From NCBI RefSeq assembly GCF_014284155.1, contig NZ_JACOFZ010000001.1, forward strand, positions 1,721,885-1,785,884: 64,000 nucleotides of DNA, given 5' to 3'. The notes under the pieces are model-generated. The model ran no database searches, was not told the origin of the DNA, and saw only the letters and a program-made list of their open reading frames with translations. This document shows positions 22,817 to 28,435 of this stretch, piece by piece; position 1 is the stretch's first letter; each line of letters begins with the position of its first letter. The position numbers and the translations under genes were made by a program. The stretch comes from Affinundibacterium nitidum (GTDB taxonomy: Bacteria; Pseudomonadota; Gammaproteobacteria; Burkholderiales; Burkholderiaceae_D).

Positions 22817-23229
22817 TGAAGAAAAGAATCGCTCTAAACCAAAGGGCTTGATTGAGAGTACGAAACAGGATTACGGTTAGCATCGCGATCAAAGGCCGAT
22901 CAGATATCGATGCGGGCCACTAAGATTCACACTAACCTATGCGGCCAATATCGAAGGACTCACAGGATTGATAAGCAGATGACATTAAGCACAATCTAAA
23001 ATACAAAAAGAATTTCCCAGGCCGTGCAAATGAAATGACAACCGCGCGGAGGAACGCTGATGCATCTCAGGCTAAAAATTGAGCTAGCTAGTTCTCCTAG
23101 GATACGCATAGACGCCACCTTCAAGATCCTCTTACACTCCTCGTTGGAGGAGCGCTGCACTCGAAAGTCACGTTCTCTGCTGAGCCCCTCGATTGGAAAT
23201 CTCACCATTTCCTCTTTTGCACGAAGCTC

Positions 23230-23309
23230 AACTTTAAGCTTGAATTGAGTGGCTCAAGCCAGCGCATCCATTGGAACGAAGTGTCGCGAACTCGAATGCC
23301 ACGTTAGAC
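23230..23309 (-). other. attC-like site of cassette 3 (degenerate)
   Basis: The minus strand starts with GTCTAAC (23309-23303), a match to the inverse core RYYYAAC that overlaps the TAA stop of the cassette gene. It ends near AATTCAAGCTTAAAG (~23245-23231), resembling the usual AATTCAAGCGTTRRRY end with a decayed core. The total of about 80 nt is within attC range. Confidence 0.5.
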
Positions 23310-23771
23310 GCGCGTTCGAACAGCAGGTCGATTAAGTAATAATATTACCAAGCACGCTAGCGCTACAGCATTTACCGCGACATATTGTTGGCCATGAACG
23401 GCGCCGTGCGAAACCATAAAATCAATCCCAATACTGAACTCGTAAAGTGCCGAGGCACTGCCCTTGTCCGACATATCAGCCCCCAAGGGCACAAACACAC
23501 CCAATCCCGGCCGATACAAGAGAGTGCCGACAAAGAAGACTGGTATTTGTAAAAGTTGAACAACAATCGAACCAGACCAGGCGAATTTACTGGCTCGCAA
23601 CAGCGCAATACCTGCCAATAGGCCCAGGGTTCCAAGTGCGATAAGCGCACCCGTTCTAAGAGTAACAGCACCCGTGCCATCCGATGAGAAAAAGGCCGCA
23701 GTTATATCGCCAAGCATGAACACGCCTGAGAGTATTTCGAGCCAGGCGACCATACGAATCGGTTTATTCAT
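23304..23771 (-). CDS. Cassette 3: four-helix membrane protein of unknown function
   Basis: 155 residues from the ATG at 23771 (MNKPIRMVAWLEILSG). A longer reading to 23816 would run through the preceding attC. There are about four hydrophobic helices (~7-27, 38-58, 64-85, 125-148). The gene has no promoter of its own: it starts 7 nt after an attC core and its stop is embedded in the next attC, the normal layout of an integron cassette. No family is recognised. Confidence 0.65.
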   Translation of the reverse strand: MNKPIRMVAWLEILSGVFMLGDITAAFFSSDGTGAVTLRTGALIALGTLGLLAGIALLRASKFAWSGSIVVQLLQIPVFFVGTLLYRPGLGVFVPLGADMSDKGSASALYEFSIGIDFMVSHGAVHGQQYVAVNAVALACLVILLLNRPAVRTRV

Positions 23772-23777
23772 GAGGAT

Positions 23778-23834
23778 GTTTAATGTTGGAGGTACGGGGC
23801 TGCGGCGCGACAGCAATTGACCGAGGGGTTAGGC
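23778..23834 (-). other. attC site of cassette 2
   Basis: The minus strand begins GCCTAACCCCTCGGTCAATT (inverse core GCCTAAC, 23834-23828, overlapping the stop codon of cassette gene 2). It ends TACCTCCAACATTAAACATC. The 3' core ATTAAAC (23784-23778) differs from GTTRRRY only at the first base. The length of 57 nt and the CCTCGGTC / TACCTC arms resemble short attC sites of known cassettes. Confidence 0.65.
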
Positions 23835-24383
23835 CACATTCAGCGCTCGCTGTGTGGCTGCTGAAATTTGTACGCAGTTCGGAGACTCGACTTCGCGCTG
23901 CAATGCGAGTTGAGCGTGCTGCGTGAGTGGCGACCCCGAAGACAAGAGAGCCGTTGGGTTGTCCATGGAGGCGAACCAACTGAGCCCTTCGTTGGTTATG
24001 CACTGAAGCATGAGGTCCGCACATCGCTTCCAGCTAACTTCGTCCGCAGTGAAGTCGAAATTTTGGAGCCTGAGACCGGGCGACTCCCGATCAGGAATCC
24101 CGTCAGTGCATGGACCATTTAGACCGGCTGCAGGAAACTCGTCAGACCTGACGCGCAAACCAAAATGGATTCGGAACGAGGCAGCAAAAGTGTACTTGTG
24201 GACGTGAACGAACTCGATGACGTACGGACCAGTGCGGGTGAAGAATGTGGGCTTTGTGCACTGGAACCCAAATGGCTTAAGCATCCCTGCAAGGAGGCGC
24301 AACACCTTGTGCGCATCGCGTGACTCCTGCCTCTTCTCAGGGGAGCTAGGGAAAGCCGGGCGTGACATCAGATGTTCGTTCAT
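23829..24383 (-). CDS. Cassette 2: DUF4304-like cytosolic protein
   Basis: 184 residues from the ATG at 24383. An upstream ATG at 24440 lies inside the preceding attC and is rejected. The N-terminal part (VLRLLAGMLKPFGFQCTKPTFFTRTG, then VIEFVHVHKYTFAASFRIHFGLR) resembles DUF4304 proteins, which are frequent integron cargo. The function is unknown. The start codon lies 4 nt after a perfect core site GTTAGGC and the TAA stop sits in GCCTAAC, so the coding part spans almost the whole cassette. Base composition is richer in GC than the neighbours. Confidence 0.68.
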   Translation of the reverse strand: MNEHLMSRPAFPSSPEKRQESRDAHKVLRLLAGMLKPFGFQCTKPTFFTRTGPYVIEFVHVHKYTFAASFRIHFGLRVRSDEFPAAGLNGPCTDGIPDRESPGLRLQNFDFTADEVSWKRCADLMLQCITNEGLSWFASMDNPTALLSSGSPLTQHAQLALQREVESPNCVQISAATQRALNVA

Positions 24384-24386
24384 GCG

Positions 24387-24473
24387 GCCTAACGCTGATT
24401 TGAAAGGCGCGCGCCAATCAGTAAAATTTAAAAAACGCATATTCGCGGGTCATTTTCGAAAGCCATGTTAGGT
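24387..24473 (-). other. attC site of cassette 1
   Basis: The inverse core ACCTAAC (24473-24467) contains the stop of cassette gene 1. The 3' core GTTAGGC (24393-24387) matches GTTRRRY exactly and is preceded by TTTCAAATCAGC. Length 87 nt. The central part holds a GC-rich palindrome (GGCGCGCGCC). Confidence 0.7.
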
Positions 24474-24863
24474 TTTAGTGGCACCACGACCGAGCTTCCT
24501 ATTAGCACGCACAAACTCACTTACCGAGATAATCATTAAATACCATCCATAAGCGATGAATGCTCCAAATAGCCAGAATGAGATTTGATCCGATTCGACA
24601 GTGAAACTTCCATCTTCCATCTCTTCAACAAAAAGCATTTTAGGATTGGAAAACGATAGAGGAATTAAAAGATAACTTTGACTTTGTATTTCCCAACCTA
24701 CAAATGATCCACCAATTGCTAGCGGTAGATAGTTCTGCATATGCGCTCTTGCCGCATCTTCCCCTTTCCAAGGGCTAACAACGTTACGCGTGGAATTTAC
24801 AAGGGCAATTAGTGCCAAAAACATCAATAGCAATTTAAAAAAGCTGATTAATCTTCGCTTCAT
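24468..24863 (-). CDS. Cassette 1: small membrane protein of unknown function
   Basis: 131 residues. Hydrophobic helices lie near residues 8-24 and ~95-116, with a soluble stretch of ~65 residues between that would face the periplasm. The ATG lies 6 nt after the core site GTTAGGT at 24876-24870. There is almost no room for a promoter, as in integron cassettes. It is AT-richer than cassette 2, consistent with an independent origin. No family is recognised. Confidence 0.65.
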   Translation of the reverse strand: MKRRLISFFKLLLMFLALIALVNSTRNVVSPWKGEDAARAHMQNYLPLAIGGSFVGWEIQSQSYLLIPLSFSNPKMLFVEEMEDGSFTVESDQISFWLFGAFIAYGWYLMIISVSEFVRANRKLGRGATKT

Positions 24864-24869
24864 TTAAAA

Positions 24870-24944
24870 ACCTAACGTTTTAGTTGTGCGGCACCCCGAA
24901 GGGGGAACCGCGTAGCGGTGTCCGCTACCAATGCCTTGTTGCAC
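24870..24944 (-). other. attC site upstream of cassette 1 (from a lost or preceding cassette)
   Basis: The 3' core GTTAGGT (24876-24870) is a perfect GTTRRRY. The inverse core GTGCAAC (24944-24938) is one base off RYYYAAC. Between them are nested GC-rich arms (GGTAGCGGACACCGCTAC; CCCCCTTCGGGG), so the single strand would fold into a long imperfect hairpin. Length 75 nt. Confidence 0.7.
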
Positions 24945-25050
24945 GGCGCGTCTACAGCTGGTTGTAAATTAGTTATGGAGATTTTAAGAGTTATCAGAAC
25001 GAGAAGCAATCTGATTTATTCTTAAAATTAAAAAAATGTTGACGACAAAG

Positions 25051-25080
25051 TGGGCGATAGTGGGCGATAGTTGGCGAGCA
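25051..25080. repeat. Three 10-bp direct repeats beside the IS91-type transposase
   Basis: TGGGCGATAG, TGGGCGATAG, TTGGCGAGCA in tandem, about 90 nt beyond the 3' end of the transposase gene. This could belong to the oriIS end of the element. No function is shown by the sequence alone. Confidence 0.5.
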
Positions 25081-25165
25081 TTGGAACAATATTATCTGAT
25101 GACAATGAAAACGCGATAAACGTGGAAGTTGAGACGAGTTGAGACAAGCACGAATCAACAATGTG

Positions 25166-26341
25166 CTACACATGTTGACCTCCTAATGGGCGCGGTCGTG
25201 GTGGATCATGATGCGGAGCGATGTTACGGACATGGCTGATATGCGCGCCGCAAACAGTACACACATGCGCGGTGGGTCGCGTGACGTGTTGCGCGTAATA
25301 CGCTTGCCACGTCAATGGTTCAATCTTGGTGATGGGCGCTTGACGGAACACGGTACGTGCCAAATTCAATCGTGCTGTTTTACGCGGCGCGTACAAACCA
25401 TAACTGCGCACCGTGTGTTTGCCGGGTTCGGGTACGTGTTGCAACACCAGTTTCAGAAAACGTTCCGGCGTGTGAGCCGCGCAAACCGAGCGATACGCAG
25501 TAGCGCTATCACGATGCGGTGTATACGTAAAATTAACCTGCTGATTCGTGAGCCGAATCTGACCATCATGCAATGGACCTCCCCGTACGTAGCGCGCTAA
25601 ATACTGCACCAAGCCCTGACCGTGATCGTAACGGGTTTCAATACGCACATTCCACTTCTTCCGAAACAGATGGTTCAAGCACGAATGCATGCGCTCAGGA
25701 CTCACATCATCGGGTAGGCGCAACGTTTGCCGCTCGATGGCACGTCGCAACAACGCGAGCAATTTACCGCGAAATTTAGCCATCAGTACCCGTGCAGGTA
25801 ACAGACAACTGCCTTTGGGGTGCTGCCAACCAGCATCAGAGATACCACCATCAGTGAGCAAACAATGCAAGTGCGGATGCAAAGAGAGGGAGCGCCCCCA
25901 AGTATGCAGTGACAAGACATAGCCCGGTTCAGCACCAGCAAGTCGTCGCTCATCGTTGAGTAATTCTTGCAGACATTGACTAGCGCACTGAAACAGCAAT
26001 TCCATCATCGCGGCGGTATTGAGTTGCCACAGCGAGTTCAATTCATGGGGGATGGTAAAGATGATGTGATGGTGCGGGCAATGCAGTAAGCGCTCGCGCT
26101 GTTGCTGCAACCAACGCGCCATTTGCAGGCCTTTACATTGTGGACAACTACGATGCTTACAGGAGTTATACCAGACCCGTTCAACATGGCCTTGAGGGCA
26201 AGCCTGCACATGGCCACCTAATGCAGCAGTACGACAGCGAGAAAGTTTATTCGCAGCCCGATACCAATGCGGCGGTAAGCGTTCAGTATCAGCCAACTGT
26301 GAGAAATGGCGCTGAAAAAGACGCTGCAATGTACTGGCCAT
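25166..26341 (-). CDS. IS91-family rolling-circle (HUH) transposase
   Basis: 391 residues. The N-terminal zinc-finger region has CPQGHVERVWYNSCKHRSCPQC (first 20 residues of interest: the four Cys and His ligands at ~48-69). The HUH motif is HPHLHCLLTDGG. The catalytic-tyrosine region is VQYLARYVRGGP, and YTPHRDS follows, as in IS91/IS801/IS1294 proteins. Such enzymes move DNA by rolling-circle replication and can carry neighbouring sequence. The frame is intact, so it may be active. It adjoins the attC cluster in the same orientation. Confidence 0.9.
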   Translation of the reverse strand: MASTLQRLFQRHFSQLADTERLPPHWYRAANKLSRCRTAALGGHVQACPQGHVERVWYNSCKHRSCPQCKGLQMARWLQQQRERLLHCPHHHIIFTIPHELNSLWQLNTAAMMELLFQCASQCLQELLNDERRLAGAEPGYVLSLHTWGRSLSLHPHLHCLLTDGGISDAGWQHPKGSCLLPARVLMAKFRGKLLALLRRAIERQTLRLPDDVSPERMHSCLNHLFRKKWNVRIETRYDHGQGLVQYLARYVRGGPLHDGQIRLTNQQVNFTYTPHRDSATAYRSVCAAHTPERFLKLVLQHVPEPGKHTVRSYGLYAPRKTARLNLARTVFRQAPITKIEPLTWQAYYAQHVTRPTAHVCTVCGAHISHVRNIAPHHDPPRPRPLGGQHV

Positions 26342-26516
26342 TGGTCACCTCTCTTAACGCAAAGAACCAGTCAGCCGGCGCTTTACGCGTCCTCCCGCGC
26401 AGCGGGACTAGTGCAACTTGTTTTAAAGTGAAAGAAACCGAAGTTAACACATTATTGATTTTTCATAAACAAAGTTCCAAGCCTCTCAAAACCCGCGCCA
26501 GGCCTTGCTCCTTTTT

Positions 26517-26544
26517 GTTATACCTGCCTCACAAAAGGTATAAC
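26517..26544. terminator. Inverted repeat downstream of glmS
   Basis: GTTATACCT (26517-26525) and AGGTATAAC (26536-26544) form a perfect 9-bp stem over a 10-nt loop, 60 nt past the glmS stop. It probably ends glmS transcription, although the minus-strand tail is AAAAAGG, not a T-run. It could also be the boundary of the inserted island. Confidence 0.45.
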
Positions 26545-26605: not shown

Positions 26606-28435
26606 TTATTCGACTGTAACGCTCTTCGCCAAATTTCGAGGCTTGTCGACGTCGGTGCCGCGCGCTAAAGCCGTGTGATACGCCAGTAATTGCAATGGCA
26701 CCGTGTGTAAGATCGGTGACAGCATGCCGTAGTGTTCTGGTAGGCGAATCACATGCACGCCTTCGCTTGGGGCGATGCGGGAGTCGGCGTCGGCGAAGAC
26801 GTAAAGCTCACCGCCGCGAGCACGAACTTCTTGCATGTTCGATTTGAGTTTTTCGATGAGTGTGTCGTTCGGTGCAACGGTCACTACTGGCATGTCTTTG
26901 GTGACCAATGCGAGTGGGCCGTGCTTGAGTTCGCCTGCTGGGTAAGCTTCGGCGTGGATGTAGGAAATCTCTTTGAGCTTTAATGCACCTTCGAGTGCGA
27001 TGGGGTAATGCAGGCCGCGGCCTAAGAACAAGGCATTTTCTTTACGCGCAAATTCATCTGCCCAGGCGATGATTTGAGGTTCGAGTGCGAGCACGGCGGT
27101 GATGGCGACTGGCAAATGACGAAGTGCTTTGATGTGATCTTGTTCTTGCGTTTCGCTCAAACGACCTTTGCTTTGCGCGAGTGTCAGTGCCAACAAAAAT
27201 AAGGCTGCGAGTTGCGTGGTGAAGGCTTTGGTCGATGCCACGCCGACTTCCACACCGGCACGTGTGATATAGGCCAGCTCGCATTCACGCACCATGGCGC
27301 TGGTCGAGACATTGCAGATCGTTAGGCTATGCGGCATGCCAAGTTCGCGTGCGTGTTTCAGTGCAGCTAAAGTGTCTGCCGTTTCGCCACTTTGTGAAAT
27401 AGTGACCACCAAACTCTTAGGATTCGGCACGCTGTCGCGATAGCGGTATTCGCTCGCGATTTCCACATTCACTGGAATTTTGGCGATGGACTCTATCCAA
27501 TATTTTGCCGTCATGCCAGCGTAGTAGCTGGTACCGCACGCGAGGATTAAGACGTTATCGATCTCTTGAAACACGCGATAGGCTTTGTCACCAAACAGCT
27601 CGGGCATGATATTCGTGATGCCTTCTAAGGTATCGCCCAAAGCGCGTGCTTGTTCGAAAATTTCTTTTTGCATGTAGTGGCGATAGGGACCCAACTCTGC
27701 CGCACCGGTGTGCGCATGCACGGTACGCACTTCACGTTCAACTTGTTTGCCATTCACATCCGCGATCCACACGCGTTGCAATTGCAAATCAACGACGTCA
27801 CCTTCTTCGAGATAAATGATTTGATCTGTGGTGCCTGCTAACGCCATCGCATCAGAAGCGAGGAAGTTTTCACCTTTGCCGATGCCAACGATTAAGGGGG
27901 AGCCTTGACGCGCGCCGACCACACGATGTGGCTCGTCGCGGCAGAAAACGGCAATCGCATAGGCACCGGTTAAGCGCTTCACCGCTTGTTGCACAGTGTC
28001 GAATAAATCACCGTTATATAAATGGTCGACCAAATGCGCGATGACTTCGGTGTCGGTTTGGCTTTCAAACACATAGCCCGCTTGCGTCAACTCGGCACGT
28101 AGTTCTTCGTGATTTTCGATAATGCCGTTATGCACGAGGGCGATGCGAGCGTTGTCGCCATTGCGAGAAAAGTGAGGGTGCGCATTGGCAGACGACGGTG
28201 CACCATGCGTGGCCCAACGCGTATGAGCAATGCCCGTAAAGCCGCTCAAGCCTGTTTGTTCGACTTGCGCTTGCAACTCGGCCACACGTGAAGTACTACG
28301 TGAGCGCTGCAGTTTGCCATCGACATGCAAAGCCACGCCGCAGGAGTCATAGCCACGGTATTCAAGGCGTTTTAGGCCTTCTAACAAAATAGGAGTGATG
28401 TTGCGTTGTGCTACTGCGCCGACGATGCCACACAT
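26606..28435 (-). CDS. glmS: Glutamine-fructose-6-phosphate aminotransferase (isomerizing)
   Basis: 609 residues, standard length. The N-terminal MCGIVGAV gives the nucleophilic Cys after Met removal, in an Ntn glutaminase domain with [11 protein letters not shown] and [12 protein letters not shown]. Two SIS sugar-isomerase domains follow ([49 protein letters not shown]). The C-terminus LAKSVTVE is the classic GlmS ending. It makes glucosamine-6-phosphate for peptidoglycan and LPS. The Lrp-type regulator is divergent from it. Confidence 0.97.

Follow-up and report, generated by a model that had tools for sequence, protein, structure and literature searches.

A probable integron remnant without intI in Undibacterium, with an IS91-like transposase gene as its likely first cassette

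Introduction

The frequent co-occurrence of IS91 and ISCR elements with integrons is an open question, as is the origin of attC sites and of CALINs, the clusters of attC sites that lack an integron integrase. Insertion sequences (ISs) linked to attC sites insert inside the attC and use another kind of transposase, and Loot et al. reportedly described in 2024 genomic sites, attG, that hold cassettes away from the integrase gene intI. Here we describe an array of gene cassettes in a 64,000 bp stretch of an Undibacterium genome catalogued as Affinundibacterium nitidum (GCF_014284155.1, contig NZ_JACOFZ010000001.1; this whole stretch is hereafter the window), in which an IS91-like transposase gene lies behind an attI-like site. 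The unit differs from the attC-linked ISs in that it encodes a Y2 enzyme and carries its own attC-like end, and from cassettes at attG in that its landing sites match a site found beside intI. As in a CALIN, several attC sites share one orientation and the window has no intI, but here an attI-like site is retained, and the locus is therefore an integron platform without intI and not a bare cluster.

Partial precedents for the association can be found. ISShvi3, an IS91-like element, lies in a Shewanella integron, of which the accessible part of the text presents a single case (PMC9229058), whereas here two transposase lineages are seen in several genera, with both ends at core sites where read and with end pairing tested against shuffled sequences. 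ISCR28 of the sul4 modules has attC sites at its end, and its authors, in the portion of the paper available to us, state that this would imply passive shuffling as cassette components (PMC12772301); our comparison with ISCR28 and ISShvi3 is one of descriptions. A table row, seen as an excerpt, places an IS91 between aacA4 and an intI1 (PMC10715227), and the ISs linked to integron attC sites that are cited in the accessible parts of PMC11089894 and PMC11616780 are alike in their link to attC. Transposase cassettes are not described in the available portions of PMC7923331, PMC8527097, PMC3826837, PMC6957179, PMC11089894, PMC11616780 and PMC11023631, and a literature search largely limited to freely accessible text returned no account of a transposase-cassette pattern across lineages or of attI-like sites in Undibacterium.

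Results

Organization of the locus

The window corresponds to positions 1721885-1785884 of contig C11 in an assembly of 4.38 Mb and 80 contigs that is 99.7% complete; C, G and L numbers below are our labels for contigs, genomes and loci. On the minus strand, downstream of glmS, lies an integron without intI, in which an attI-like site (26415-26447) is followed by four cassettes, all oriented alike. That integron cassettes are present here is near certain, and we put at about three in four the probability of the explanation as a whole, that the locus is the remnant of a chromosomal integron in Undibacterium whose neighbouring intI has been lost. A preliminary description, made from the sequence alone, had placed four attC-like sites here on one strand, and their positions and cores are as it gave them, with each of the three cargo genes stopping at the TAA of its inverse core, and with distances of 6, 3 and 6 nt from the first three 3' cores to the next ATG. 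The three cargo cassettes it drew stand; its array was incomplete, in that the attI-like site and an IS91-family transposase cassette were missed just outside it, and its first site, which is attC-like as proposed, is now further identified as the 3' end of that cassette (24876-26416). It also left the 3' core of site 4, GTTGAGC, unnamed. Its assignment of the locus to the CALINs agrees with the presence of at least two close attC sites (site 2 strong and site 4 weak in a covariance model of our own, site 3 by homology) and with the lack of a nearby integron integrase over the TIGR02249 cut-off in a search of the genome. Of the parts of a complete integron, no functional intI was found in the assembly and an attI is predicted by motif identity with a site beside intI at L049.

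The attC sites

Site 2 (24387-24473, minus strand; ACCTAAC...GTTAGGC) is intact and belongs to a family repeated in the genome, with nine relatives that are 73-86% identical over 85-90 nt, and a further two of shorter length, found on C22, C32, C43 and C65. Twelve such sites, site 2 included, align with R''/R' pairing, an L''/L' stem and an extrahelical base. The observed values of five pairing and covariation measures were reached by 1 to 17 of 500 shuffles, under a consensus structure that we drew from the 12 tested sequences and that is thereby favoured; RNAalifold, unaided, gave the inner 10 pairs only. A covariance model built from the 12 sites returned at least 21 genomic places with E<=1, a count that takes in the training sites, on C22, C32, C43, C65 and C11; this is a lower bound because 150 of 1962 candidates were scored, and more were seen besides. 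Site 2 scores 91.9 bits, a value that is not independent since it is one of the training sites.

The two sites beyond it are decayed. Site 4 (23226-23309, minus strand; GTCTAAC...GTTGAGC) is degenerate, with 12.7 bits (E 0.41) in the model and a match of 78% over 65 nt to an attC on C32. The 3' half of site 3 (23778-23834, minus strand; GCCTAAC...ATTAAAC) is nearly identical to an attC in another Undibacterium genome (G003, L044), and judged by alignment with that site it looks like a shortened attC copy with a damaged R' core. Single-strand DNA folding energy does not separate sites 2, 3 and 4 from shuffled sequences (z -0.07, -0.03 and +1.20, respectively), and for site 1 it is low (z -2.54), a value that 4 of 200 shuffles match or undercut. 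An Rfam scan of the window gave no match at the gathering score.

The attI-like site and the loss of intI

The attI-like site, with its G|TT crossover between 26417 and 26416, agrees in every position with one at L049, where the likely start of an intact intI is about 110 nt away; at L048 the distance to the likely intI start is again about 110 nt, and the site differs by 8 mismatches. With up to three mismatches allowed, 21 such sites are spread over 11 of 44 genus genomes, the genome described here having six, and the reversed pattern, used as a control, has no match in the same 44 genomes. The motif is found in three named contigs, one from Undibacterium fentianense (L062) and two from metagenome-assembled genomes of Oxalobacteraceae that appear to be G020 (L061, as is L049) and G039 (L063, as is L074); G007, of the same genus, has an attI-like site followed by the same letters as in L062.

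An integron integrase over the TIGR02249 cut-off is present in 12 of the 44 genus genomes and absent from the present assembly, in agreement with the earlier statement that the window has none. A search of the rest of the genome, as the preliminary description had advised, gave no functional intI and only an intI fragment with a stop at C22:454038-454214 (L034 6039-6215), near attC sites of the same contig, which is probably the genome's broken integrase gene. With this fragment alone and no match over cut-off, the window array is taken to have no intI of its own. Among the 21 attI-like sites, an IntI frame lies in the flanks of one (L164, 619 bits) and no intI in the flanking DNA of the other 20, where about 1.5 kb upstream was covered and a more distant intI is possible; L166 is uninformative because its upstream flank is only 0.35 kb. 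Matches of 153 bits at L166 and L174 are the tyrosine (Tyr) recombinase of IS91-type units and not IntI.

At exactly -122 from the crossover, a LexA-box-like sequence is found in five of the 21 sites (L158, L164, L171, L173 and L176; up to three mismatches allowed), matching CTGT-N8-ACAG in L164 and L173, and this test found no box in the other 16 upstreams, the window copy (L162) included. In the alignment of the 21 upstreams, an inverted repeat at 26517-26544 (minus strand) of the window may represent the decayed LexA-box region of a lost intI promoter. We read the 20 attI-like sites as platforms that lost intI.

A weakly IntI-like Tyr recombinase in a 382-aa frame lies at C65:90101-90895, about 18 kb from attC sites of the same contig. 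As the missing IntI it is too weak, at 108 bits against 619 for a true IntI.

The IS91-like transposase cassette

Cassette 1 (24876-26416, minus strand) is bounded on both sides by G|TT core sites, as seen by comparing its junctions with those of the copies described below. It encodes a 391-aa transposase (25166-26341, minus strand) with the Y2 and zinc-binding domains of the IS91 family (Pfam Y2_Tnp, E 1.1e-45; Zn_Tnp_IS91, E 5.4e-26). Site 1 (24870-24944, minus strand; GTGCAAC...GTTAGGT) forms its attC-like end, in which the R'' box, GTGCAAC, exactly reverse-complements the GTTGCAC at the 5' end of the same unit, giving 7 of 7 pairs between R'' and R'.

The genome holds four copies of this unit, namely that in the window, two in tandem on C32 and a truncated one on C43. 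On C32 the unit stands at an attI-like site, and the junction between the tandem copies reads AAAACG|TTGCAC. G039, another species, carries a 95% identical transposase of which the contig end leaves the first 153 residues, and this lies beside an intact intI at a different attI, one that ends in CTAG instead of CAAG. The 5' junctions of these units have only G|TT in common, following flanks of CAAG, CTAG and AACG, and the 3' junctions are G|TTAGGT, G|TTAGTG and G|TTAAAC, with G|TTGCAC in tandem. The unit is likely built as a cassette, with an attC-like 3' end and a 5' end that supplies the matching core, and IntI is a likelier agent of its placement than its own transposase. A search of viral contigs with the transposase gave no match.

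Relatives of the transposase cassette

Homologues of the window transposase occur in two of 44 genus genomes (E<=1e-60) and in two of 393 family genomes (E<=1e-75), the same two. At the level of the class, eight of 369 genomes have a match at E<=1e-50, the present genome included, with nine further loci in seven genomes at 35-50% identity. By eye the 3' ends are cassette-shaped at all nine and the 5' ends at all six that were read, namely those other than L110-L112; the flank of L105 is not assignable to attI or attC.

A second lineage is represented by a two-ORF (open reading frame) relative (L063) encoding a Tyr recombinase and a Y2 transposase; the present genome has a copy of it, 94% identical, at C11:1033931-1035103. 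The search with it gave 25 loci in 15 of 393 family genomes at E<=1e-80. All 11 loci at 59% identity or more have a strong 3' attC and 10 have a GTTGAAC 5' end, the exception being L091, whose sequence parts from that of L080 near the beginning of the transposase gene. Among the loci at 43-48% identity, 13 of 14 show at least one end, of another kind, and none was read in L092. Relatives with such other ends differ in their ends from the IS91-like cassettes, and their flanks are consistent where read. We also note that in the present genome (L037/L069, about C11:1032957-1035423) the two-ORF unit lies at an attI-like site, with a strong 3' attC and small ORFs behind it.

Plasmid-borne class 1 integrons also contain related units. 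One of these, L103, has aadA2, the last cassette, on one side and qacEdelta1 on the other, and its transposase gene is present at 100% in 11 PLSDB records; L100 lies between the cassettes aac(6')-IIa and aadA4. Units directly behind attI-like sites are those of the window, C32, G039 C2, L075 and L063, and by eye also L076 and L080. On plasmids of Polaromonas (L099) and Thiothrix (L144), cassette-shaped IS91-type ends occur with no integron annotated around them, and a Tyr recombinase lies downstream in L099.

Pairing of the ends was scored between the 3' R'' and an upstream GTTNNNN, together with the inner stem, for 52 rows with 60 dinucleotide shuffles each. Thirty rows, from Oxalobacteraceae to clinical class 1 integrons, had been classed as cassette-shaped and 22 as others, the latter including eight plasmid rows (L145-L152) that we picked as likely non-cassette. 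No shuffle reached the score in 25 of the 30 cassette-shaped rows, compared with one of the 22 others (L147). In the remaining cassette-shaped rows the score was reached by 10 shuffles for the window, 21 for L066, 15 for L109 and one for L103, and L067 gave no solution, probably because the tandem neighbour at the end of the locus was picked. Among the other rows, shuffles reached L085 three times and a further 20 rows between 9 and 60 times; two of the 20 had no solution. L147 (ISAzo26) was rejected as cassette-like, its partner lying away from its end, and passed by chance. In an unrooted tree of 46 transposases, with near-copies and partial sequences (L066, L089, L090, L095, L111 and L112) left out, one branch separates the two labels with support of 100/100; L143, L103 and L108 have long branches.

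Cargo cassettes

The ORFs of cassette 2 (24468-24863, minus strand, 131 aa) and cassette 4 (23304-23771, minus strand, 155 aa) match no family over cut-off, and by our reading both likely encode membrane proteins. That of cassette 3 (23829-24383, minus strand, 184 aa), which had been called DUF4304-like, has a weak resemblance to that family, below the Pfam cut-off (E 0.035; 14.6 bits against 23.2). None of the three proteins has a match in PLSDB. The genome search, which among the cargo genes covered cassette 3 alone, found it in two others of 344 Oxalobacteraceae genomes searched, G003 (77% protein identity) and G014 (37%). The DNA match with G003 (84% over 572 bp) begins at 24393, where the GTTAGGC core starts, and runs on to 23822, shortly beyond the R'' box; in G003 the homologue directly follows an attI-like site. 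Its attC there is interrupted by other sequence, also present behind CCTAAC in L063, which we take for an insertion sequence. At L154 and L063 a common sequence, probably an insertion sequence, begins a few bases past the CCTAAC core.

Beyond site 4, a 70-aa ORF (22996-23208) starts 17 nt past the last core, GTTGAGC, and could be a fifth cassette or a chance reading frame; the attC model search found no site behind it.

Flanking sequences

The gene directly upstream of the attI-like site, in the sense of the cassettes, is the chromosomal glmS (26606-28435, minus strand; named from its protein sequence in the ORF list), the 3' part of which is matched in 43 of the 44 genus genomes. An empty site behind glmS common to the genus was considered and rejected: among 29 relatives read, of 42 with a match, only G028 has an attI within three mismatches there, G001 and G008 have diverged versions, and the rest show no likeness by eye. 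On the glmS 3' side of G028, G001 and G008 (L118, L124 and L122), different ORFs follow an attI-like site placed as in the window. Another attI-like site, with three mismatches, lies 1.1 kb before the window start (C11:1720723-1720755) and is followed by an 87-aa ORF 10 nt past the crossover.

Discussion

In the scenario we favour, an integron integrase would insert circular cassettes one after another at the G|TT of attI, by recombination with their folded attC sites, so that the newest adjoins attI; here that would be the unit with the IS91-family (Y2/HUH) transposase. Such transposase cassettes may be long-lived lineages across proteobacterial integrons that have entered clinical class 1 integrons, and the array that remains in the window would be fixed in cis and movable by IntI supplied in trans. 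We prefer this explanation because members of the attC family, on five contigs, show R''/R' and L''/L' pairs together with an extrahelical base, because the attI motif lies near intact intI genes (L049 and L048) and the G003 copy of cassette 3 is likewise delimited by the core, and because IS91-like units stand at attI-like sites, related units are found in class 1 integrons, and end pairing differs between the two groups of transposases.

Several observations weigh against it. An IS91-type insertion at a core would give identical junctions, and no excision or circular form was seen. By eye, nine units lie behind an attC (L077, L079, L090, L100, L102, L103, L106, L107 and L108). In an attC covariance search of the kind that the preliminary description had proposed, the model of the genome's attC sites recovered site 2, gave site 4 its weak score and did not find sites 1 and 3. 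In the end-pairing test the total score of the window's own unit, inner stem L''/L' included, is one that 10 of 60 shuffles reach, and in eight of the 25 unreached rows (L063, L075, L091, L099, L107 and L110-L112) the 5' partner that was scored differs from the real 5' end, so that their scores speak mainly for a 3' attC; at L107 the scored attC is that of the next cassette. The contrast between the two groups also partly restates the labels, since we had assigned these from the ends before the test and the tree.

The alternative that survives best accepts the cassettes as real and regards the IS91-like unit as an IS that itself targets integron cores, with the attC-like 3' end acting as oriIS and insertion occurring 5' of GTTRRRY; we consider this rather unlikely. 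IS91-type elements insert without target duplication beside a short target (GAAC/CAAG), and the opposite strand of the integron core has AAC at its end, a likeness that would suit such targeting. The 5' flanks of the window-type unit nevertheless have only G in common (CAAG, CTAG and AACG). The consistent flanks of the relatives with other ends, where read, make target choice by the element plausible, and the cassette-shaped ends at L099 and L144, with no annotated integron around them, are in keeping with it, allowing for the Tyr recombinase downstream in L099. Pairing between the two ends is a feature of attC, though, and in our test does not stand out in the clade with other ends, L147 excepted. 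As to placement, the nine units behind attC rather than attI are as expected of an element that selects cores, whereas seven placements behind attI-like sites are, as a plain count, many if all cores of an array were equal targets.

An unlikely reading, which would join placement by IntI with targeting by the element, is that a deep IS91-type clade has merged both systems, its 3' attC doubling as a rolling-circle origin, such that units move either by IntI or by their own HUH transposase. Were this true, the units would seed attC sites and cassettes in genomes that lost intI, and the Undibacterium attI-like sites without intI would be live landing pads. Core motifs that arose by chance in ordinary intergenic DNA, to which the shortness of GTTRRRY and RYYYAAC (46-65 matches per strand and motif in the window) and the missing or poor model scores of sites 1, 3 and 4 might point, are a highly improbable source of the array, and for site 2 and the attI-like site they are refuted by the family to which site 2 belongs, with members on five contigs, by the finding of cassette 3 behind a different attI-like site, again bounded at the core, and by the intI beside the attI motif.

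Read as cassettes, these transposase units keep an attC-like end across distant relatives, from environmental chromosomes to the class 1 integrons of clinical plasmids. They would offer a concrete system for asking if IntI and a rolling-circle enzyme use a single DNA site in common, and the attI sites without intI would make the trans use of a distant integrase testable.
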